Shown here in pieces: positions 47,608 to 47,938 of a stretch of DNA of 53,323 nucleotides (the first letter of the stretch is position 1; each line of letters begins with the position of its first letter). The notes below the pieces were generated by a model. The model searched no databases. It saw only the letters and a program-made list of their open reading frames with translations, and had not been told where the DNA came from. A program made the translations under genes and the position numbers. The DNA is from Bacteroidia bacterium (GTDB lineage Bacteria; Bacteroidota; Bacteroidia; Cytophagales; Cyclobacteriaceae): the NCBI GenBank assembly GCA_030425425.1, contig JAUIAO010000043.1:1-53323 (forward strand), in the 5' to 3' direction.

Positions 47608-47695
47608 ATTTATAAAGAAGCGCTGAGAGACAGGCTCTGTGACGCGCTAGCAACCCCCACCCTAACGGGAAGGTGCTAATTCCTGATATATAAAT
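47608..47695 (+). promoter_or_regulatory. SAM-I (S-box) type riboswitch upstream of metY
   Basis: The core shows the S-box signature: GAGAGACAGGCTC, then gcgctAGCAACCcccacc, ctaacggg, and AGGTGCTAATTCCTG. P1 pairs atttata (47608-47614) with tataaat (47689-47695), P2 pairs agcgc with gcgct, and the P3/P4 arms pair cacc with ggtg. SAM binding lowers expression of methionine biosynthesis genes, here metY-metX. There is no clear terminator U-tract downstream, so control of translation initiation or of the following leader is more likely than simple termination. Confidence 0.9.
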
Positions 47696-47703
47696 TGATA
47701 AAT

Positions 47704-47820
47704 ATGAAAAACACTTTTAAAGTCCAATTCAGGGAGTTGGTTGATTGTTCAGAACAATCAAACCTAGATTCATCATACATTGTATCTGCTGGCTGCAGTT
47801 GTTGTATGTGTTTGTGCTAA
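47704..47820 (+). CDS. Cys-rich leader peptide (38 aa) between SAM riboswitch and metY
   Basis: ATG at 47704 (MKNTFKVQFRELVDCSEQ...) to TAA at 47818. The last ten residues are AGCSCCMCLC: five of the last eight residues are Cys (31, 33, 34, 36, 38), plus Cys15, with one Met in the cluster. Placed 8 bases after the riboswitch and 118 bases before metY. An 11-bp hairpin (47739-47764) is embedded in the coding region. This arrangement fits a cysteine-responsive attenuator peptide; it could also be a chance frame or a metal-binding microprotein. Confidence 0.55.
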   Translation: MKNTFKVQFRELVDCSEQSNLDSSYIVSAGCSCCMCLC

Positions 47821-47830
47821 TCCAGTAAAT

Positions 47831-47880
47831 CTTTCGATGCAGCATCGGAGGATACACAGGTCCTCTCACGCGATGAAAGG
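47831..47880 (+). promoter_or_regulatory. Structured segment between the leader peptide and metY
   Basis: ctttc (47831-47835) can pair with gaaag (47875-47879), enclosing a cgat/atcg hairpin and a gagga/tcctc hairpin (47848-47865). The strand tgcagc (47838-47843) can instead pair with gctgca (47792-47797), inside the Cys codons of the leader peptide. Mutually exclusive pairs of this kind are expected of an attenuator. Confidence 0.4.
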
Positions 47881-47938
47881 ATCATAAAAGCATACATACT
47901 TTTAACACATTTTATCAACCATTCAAAAAAATACAATA

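Follow-up and report, generated by a model that had tools for sequence, protein, structure and literature searches.

The metY-metX leader examined in this study raises the question of whether one leader can read two signals of sulfur supply, SAM through a riboswitch and cysteine through a leader peptide. The first-pass annotation of the window, the whole 53,323-nt stretch of Cyclobacteriaceae DNA that was analyzed, had proposed a cysteine-status sensor stacked with a SAM sensor at this locus. On the plus strand, the elements of the locus follow one another in the order candidate promoter, SAM-I aptamer, upstream open reading frame (uORF), two hairpins, metY, and a metX-like gene. We consider it quite probable that this leader exerts a two-input RNA control in which a SAM-I riboswitch is stacked with a Cys/Met leader peptide.

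An Rfam search placed a SAM-I (S-box) riboswitch aptamer (RF00162) at 47607-47710 (73.3 bits; gathering score, 44.4; E-value, 1.7e-16). The strands of its helix P1 are CTCGATTTAT at 47604-47613, identified from the sequence and from the fold of the fragment ending at the AUG, and ATAAATTGAT at 47690-47699, identified from the sequence, with its end 4 nt upstream of the uORF AUG; the aptamer span originally assigned, 47608-47695, was correct to within one helix end. The uORF (47704-47820) has 38 codons and translates as MKNTFKVQFRELVDCSEQSNLDSSYIVSAGCSCCMCLC*, a putative Cys/Met-rich leader peptide ending in CSCCMCLC, with five Cys among its last eight residues as had been claimed. The block of Cys and Met codons together with the stop codon, TGT TGT ATG TGT TTG TGC TAA, occupies 47800-47820; one more Cys codon (TGC) is found two codons before it. 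The identity of metY (47939-49252), which encodes O-acetylhomoserine sulfhydrylase, is secure (TIGR01326, 669.5 bits; cut-off, 495.1). The gene at 49257-50240, which resembles metX for homoserine O-acetyltransferase, is only likely to be metX because the MetX models matched below their cut-offs (TIGR01392, 306.2 bits against 500). The metY part of the original assignment was therefore upheld, and the metX part could not be certified. Upstream of the aptamer, a candidate promoter at 47555-47585 was recognized by its motif, TTTG at 47555-47558 followed after 19 nt by TAGTATTG at 47578-47585. The consensus TTTG-N19/20-TANNTTTG, which we take to be a Bacteroidota-type promoter, occurs 118-123 nt upstream of the uORF AUG in all six genomes of the genus, exactly in five of them and with one mismatch in the window.

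The uORF was present in each of the six genus genomes examined, with 38-40 codons, an ATG start, TGYTGYATGTGY (CCMC), and a TAA stop in all, and it was located 3' of the aptamer core GCAACC in 6/6. Relative to the window, the uORF heads within the genus were identical at 43-60% of bases, metY at 74-77%, and the aptamer region at 86-95%. A larger set of metY loci comprised the best 80 of 569 found, taken from named records, and is consequently dominated by near relatives. Rfam detected the aptamer upstream of metY in 78 of these best 80 loci; the other two were L106, which has 131 nt of upstream sequence, and L115, in which the aptamer was not found. A Cys-tail ORF, defined as an ATG ORF of fewer than 100 aa that carries at least three Cys in its last 14 residues and starts from -25 to +60 of the aptamer end, was present in 61 of the 78 aptamer-bearing loci among the best 80.

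In 74 of the 78 loci, an ATG followed the aptamer at a distance of 20 nt or less, and 72 of the resulting ORFs encoded 20-80 aa. When the first ATG was chosen without regard to Cys, 56 of these 72 ORFs had at least three Cys in their last 14 residues and 53 had at least four, compared with 58 and 6, respectively, among 3713 background ORFs of the same size range that start with ATG at other places in these loci. This blind count rules out a chance origin of the Cys-rich uORF, and the combination of a SAM-I aptamer and a Cys-rich uORF before metY is confirmed as real and beyond chance. Cys accounted for 33% of the last 14 residues and 1.8% of the heads. Met was likewise concentrated in the tails (10.7%, 100 of 938 residues) relative to the heads (1.3%, 22 of 1755), and 63 of 67 tails contained at least one Met. 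Codons for the amino acids of the pathway are thus clustered near the end of the ORF, as in leader-peptide attenuators, and because Met as well as Cys is enriched, the tail is, by its composition, one that serves both sulfur amino acids. The Met codons of the tail, the closeness of P1 to the ORF start, and a second SAM and polyCys leader in this genome are three features outside the first-pass annotation.

The Cys tail was missing in 17 of the 78 loci, mostly those of Algoriphagus, Cyclobacterium, and Echinicola relatives; in these cases, the ORF usually still begins 7-10 nt after the aptamer and its Cys run is eroded. The leaders of Algoriphagus, Cyclobacterium, Echinicola, and relatives that have lost most Cys codons are L082-L087, L094, L095, L101, L104, L107, L109, and L114, and the sensor in this group may be decaying or may have changed its specificity. 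Barring these 17 loci, relatives both inside and far outside the genus retain the frame together with its ATG and stop; loss of the frame in relatives was what the first-pass annotation had named as evidence against a sensor. In four leaders (L054, L055, L062, and L072), an OsmC-like gene lies between the polyCys uORF and metY, assigned through PF02566 in L054 and through translation likeness in the other three.

Searching 148 genomes with the uORF peptide yielded 21 genomes with a match at E of 1 or less, including the genome of the window itself (G000), and the best matches of the other 20 had E-values of 0.03 to 1. These weak matches were left aside because the heads diverge. The pattern of four Cys codons and a stop was rejected as a survey tool, as it matched 113 of 148 family genomes; among 30 such loci inspected, 25 overlapped a longer ORF on either strand and 2 were metY leaders. 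A polyCys ORF ending in GQCCCCC, with no SAM aptamer motif nearby, was also observed (L173; G136:C2, approximately 34746-34760).

The position of the aptamer relative to the uORF start suggests how the two elements may be connected. The end of the Rfam model most often lay 8-12 nt upstream of the uORF AUG. When fragments ending at the AUG were folded, P1 formed in 65 of 67 leaders, including that of the window, with a median gap of 0 nt between its 3' end and the AUG; the gap was between -3 and +11 in 63 of the 65. Extending the fragments 40 nt past the AUG left P1 in 49 of 67 leaders, with the median gap still 0, and P1 was absent from the extended fold of the window. Where P1 forms in the predicted folds, the landing stretch for the ribosome is covered; a Shine-Dalgarno-like word was found in that stretch in only 2 of the 67 leaders. 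Because P1 reaches the uORF start codon, SAM binding probably blocks translation initiation on the uORF. Aptamers before different genes were compared at 30 loci, 28 from one 30-locus set and the two others of this genome. An ATG was present at +7 to +10 in all nine aptamers before metY, five of which were followed by a Cys tail, and the single aptamer before a sulfite reductase gene also had a Cys tail. No Cys-tail ORF was found at the 20 aptamers before other genes, which included metH-, metX-, and metZ-like ones by their protein starts.

We further analyzed how the Cys block could act on metY. In the window, the block strand GTTGTTGTAT (47798-47807) can pair over 10 bp with the strand ATACAATAAT (47931-47940) at the metY start, which reaches into the ATG by two bases and was identified from duplex predictions and folds. 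The pairing was tested after it had first appeared in a fold. The duplex to which it belongs has a predicted energy of -17.0 kcal/mol, with z-scores of -3.66 and -4.21, and 0 of 150 shuffles were as good by either shuffling procedure; a 7-bp core of the helix also appears in the fold of 47700-47940. Within the genus, a weaker pairing with the metY start was predicted in L137 (2/150 and 7/150 shuffles as good), in L136 (10/150 and 5/150), and in its near-copy L140 (9/150 and 5/150), and no such pairing was found in genus mates L138 and L139. No general pairing with the metY start was detected over 59 of the 67 leaders, eight with a far metY being left out (mean z, -0.24 and -0.29, with 4 and 7 leaders in the top 5%). 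Two predicted hairpins lie between the uORF and metY: H1, with 11 bp, directly after the uORF stop (47829-47853), and H2 (47859-47883), at whose position most genus mates have a GGCC..GGUC-like stem. The fold of 47821-47900 was more stable than all 200 shuffles (z, -4.11). A canonical terminator was not found in the window or in 58 of the 67 SAM-first metY leaders; only the other nine have a hairpin and U run resembling a terminator. The window leader is therefore not classed as a classical transcription attenuator. Since no other partner of the Cys block is as well supported as the metY start, the most likely output in the window is a translational release, in which a ribosome stalled on the Cys codons would free the metY start. 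A general switch in which the Cys block pairs with RNA downstream of the stop was rejected, as this pairing was weak against shuffles (mean z, -0.52, with 10 of 67 leaders in the top 5%) and showed no covariation in the genus.

A conserved element following the uORF (GCAACA..ACTAGC..CTGCC..GTGACAGG..GGTTACGGCTA) was observed in 20 metY leaders of a neighboring clade (L054-L056, L058-L062, L064-L066, and L071-L079), all selected for having this Chryseolinea-like element and none from the genus of the window. No Rfam family scored over threshold at the element. Its helix GUGAC:GUUAC showed no covariation. Covariation was partial in the helix UAGCC:GGCUA, in which 85.6% of cells were paired compared with 79.5 +- 2.0 in shuffles, and 10 cells had double changes compared with 3.7 +- 2.0 (0/500 shuffles). 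In the same helix, however, pairs with double changes numbered 3 compared with 1.6 (44/500), further pair types were not above shuffles, and the innermost pair failed in 9 of the 20 leaders.

The sulfite reductase genes provide a separate view of the cysteine element. The genome of the window carries three SAM aptamers, located before metY in the window, before a metH-like gene, and before a sulfite/nitrite reductase gene. The aptamer before the metH-like gene, which was named from its protein start, is not followed by a uORF. The third (L183/L152; G000:C22, aptamer at 15236-15346) belongs to the second SAM and polyCys leader of this genome, in which the aptamer is followed by two polyCys ORFs ending in NCCCCC and CCCQFCCCTCCSCSRG, an intrinsic terminator, and the reductase gene, which encodes NIR_SIR domains; a genus mate (L184) has the same layout. 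At its C-terminus (residues 583-688), the L183 reductase weakly matches a HEPN-like model, scoring 20.4 bits against a cut-off of 22.

The family set of 30 sulfite reductase loci divided into 15 with a polyCys uORF and a terminator, 1 with a uORF alone, 5 with a terminator alone, and 9 with neither, including L189, in which the gene start was not found and which was counted as neither despite a terminator seen in a separate scan. In L186, an aptamer and a Cys-tail ORF lie beyond the 560 nt searched. The aptamer motif was present in 5 of the 30 loci, and Rfam searches of 10 of the 30 confirmed those five and added L186. Because 11 of the 16 uORF-bearing leaders lacked the aptamer motif (4 of the 11 were checked with Rfam), the cysteine leader is, as judged from these sequences, a module of its own. 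Ten of the 11 aptamer-less polyCys leaders lay downstream of a gene that is metZ-like by likeness. A predicted antiterminator signal was clear in 6 of 14 sulfite reductase leaders (mean z, -1.73); the leader of this genome, L183, gave no such signal (z, +0.36).

A second arrangement was found in a phylum-wide sample, in which 118 of 148 genomes had a MetY match and 29 new loci were obtained, with a Cys-tail ORF in 22 of the 29 leaders. The uORF precedes the aptamer in 14 leaders (L223, L224, L226, L228-L235, and L237-L239), which come from seven genera of a single family, f21, that lies outside the class. Rfam placed the aptamer 3' of the uORF in all 12 of these loci that were scanned, and the 11 leaders inspected had the order uORF, intrinsic terminator, aptamer, second terminator, and metY. 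The 5' arm of the terminator has a predicted pairing partner in a segment at the uORF stop, in most cases only a few bases away from the last Cys codon. For 13 of the 14 leaders, this pairing ranked within the top 5% of shuffles (mean z, -2.94); the miss is L237, which was scored on the wrong hairpin. The 14 loci are not independent, since all belong to one family and six to one genus. A terminator with a competing antiterminator was thus found in the reverse-order leaders of a single family and not in the window. In the reverse order, a ribosome at the stop would mask the segment and allow the terminator to form, and a ribosome stalled on the Cys/Met codons would leave the segment free. This classical layout suggests that starvation turns the gene on.

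On the basis of these findings, we infer a mechanism with two inputs, of which the first would be the SAM-I aptamer and the second the Cys/Met-rich leader peptide. A shortage of charged tRNA-Cys, and probably also of tRNA-Met, would stall the ribosome in the codon block that closes the uORF; this block could then no longer pair downstream, and metY would be opened. In the sulfite reductase and reverse-order leaders, the output would instead be the release of an intrinsic terminator. The leader in the window may act as a coincidence gate, with metY-metX open only if SAM is low, so that the uORF is translated, and Cys or Met charging is low, so that the ribosome stalls. The proposal of a cysteine-status sensor stacked with the SAM sensor is supported computationally by the kept frame, by the sulfite reductase and reverse-order leaders, and by the pairing with the metY start.

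The main rival to translational release is a weak or Rho-dependent stop, in which the block and a competing segment, AGCATACATACTTTTAACA at 47889-47907, would form a domain that ends transcription and that ribosome stalling prevents. This second possible partner of the Cys/Met block was identified in the minimum free energy fold of 47788-47915 (z, -2.63; 1/200 shuffles), where the two strands close a domain around both hairpins; the closed domain recurs in the folds of L136, L137, and L140, a U-rich stretch follows it, and clear intrinsic terminators exist in the sulfite reductase and reverse-order metY leaders. However, the missing canonical terminator in the window argues against a transcriptional output, the pairing of the block with 47889-47907 was not above shuffles (z, +1.07) and showed no covariation in the genus, L138 folds differently, and the metY start is the better partner of the block in the window. 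We therefore regard a transcriptional output as possible but rather unlikely, and translational release remains the preferred reading of the window.

The two other explanations concern the uORF itself, and both appear far less probable. The uORF might encode a working Cys-rich microprotein that binds thiols, metals, or sulfide and is merely cotranscribed with metY; its CCMC-type Cys clusters recall metal sites, and the length of the peptide is kept at 38-40 aa in the genus. This is very unlikely, as the heads vary freely in sequence and length, the window peptide has no Pfam or NCBIfam match, and five peptides of other leaders have no NCBIfam match; the microprotein was rejected as a candidate for want of a family match. 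In the reverse-order family, moreover, the strands of the RNA switch overlap the uORF end, which suits a leader. The least probable explanation, to which we assign almost no weight, is SAM-I control alone, the uORF being an unselected open frame after the aptamer. The 17 loci without a Cys tail would fit an unselected frame, but the blind count and the existence of the separate reverse-order arrangement oppose it.

Each of the two sensors is of a known kind. The aptamer in the window is a full-length match to SAM-I (S-box) RF00162 over the gathering score; in RF00162 systems, the expression platform is a terminator or the start of the main gene, whereas in the window it appears to be the start of the leader peptide. 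In translational attenuators of the ermC type, a ribosome stalled in the leader ORF frees the start of the next gene, as proposed here for the window, but these attenuators respond to antibiotics rather than to amino acid supply and contain no riboswitch. The Salmonella mgtA leader similarly combines an RNA sensor with a leader peptide, a Mg2+ sensing RNA with the proline-rich mgtL, although its signals, parts, and phylum differ from those of the window. Two stacked regulators also precede metY in marine alphaproteobacteria, which carry tandem SAM-II/SAM-V riboswitches; however, both of these sense SAM, and there is no leader peptide. SAM-V and metY are named together in the accessible part of PMC6061858.

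Leader ORFs with polyCys runs precede cys operons in Actinobacteria, according to the accessible part of PMC1262725, and resemble the window uORF in being short, in a run of Cys codons close to the stop, and in preceding sulfur genes. They differ in phylum, in that the accessible part of PMC1262725 describes no riboswitch, and in that Met is clustered as well in the window type. Mycobacterial polycysteine uORFs are termed leaderless in the title of Canestrari et al. 2020, as cited in the accessible part of PMC13236596, whereas in the window type (6/6 genomes) the promoter motif and the AUG are 118-123 nt apart and enclose the aptamer, the transcript start being judged from the motif. For uORFC-8-2 of Rhodobacterales cysS, in which Cys codons in a uORF are followed by a terminator, ribosome-mediated attenuation has been proposed; the accessible part of PMC8632094 gives two tandem Cys codons at positions 14-15 and mentions no riboswitch. 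The window uORF falls outside that type, since it precedes metY and five of the final eight of its 38 codons encode Cys. A Flavobacterium study (PMC9723704) reports hints that operons for amino acids are preceded by leader-peptide attenuators; its accessible part names neither cysteine nor a SAM riboswitch in that role. The first-pass annotation knew of no SAM riboswitch paired with a cysteine leader in Bacteroidota, and we likewise found no description of such a pair in the open-licence literature, of which coverage was partial, so that its absence is unproven.

A broader reading, which we advance tentatively and which falls somewhat short of probable, holds that the direct output of the riboswitch is the translation of the Cys/Met peptide, which would make the leader the coincidence gate outlined above, that the opposite-order stack is used in a family of another class of the phylum, and that the cysteine sensor is reused before sulfate reduction. 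The parts of the leader are short and conserved. A riboswitch acting on the start codon of a leader peptide would be a new way to chain RNA sensors. Cys and Met draw on one sulfur supply, and a single leader reading both SAM and aminoacyl-tRNA would allow the branches to be balanced by RNA only. If true, the broader reading would point to an RNA-based sulfur regulon in Bacteroidota.
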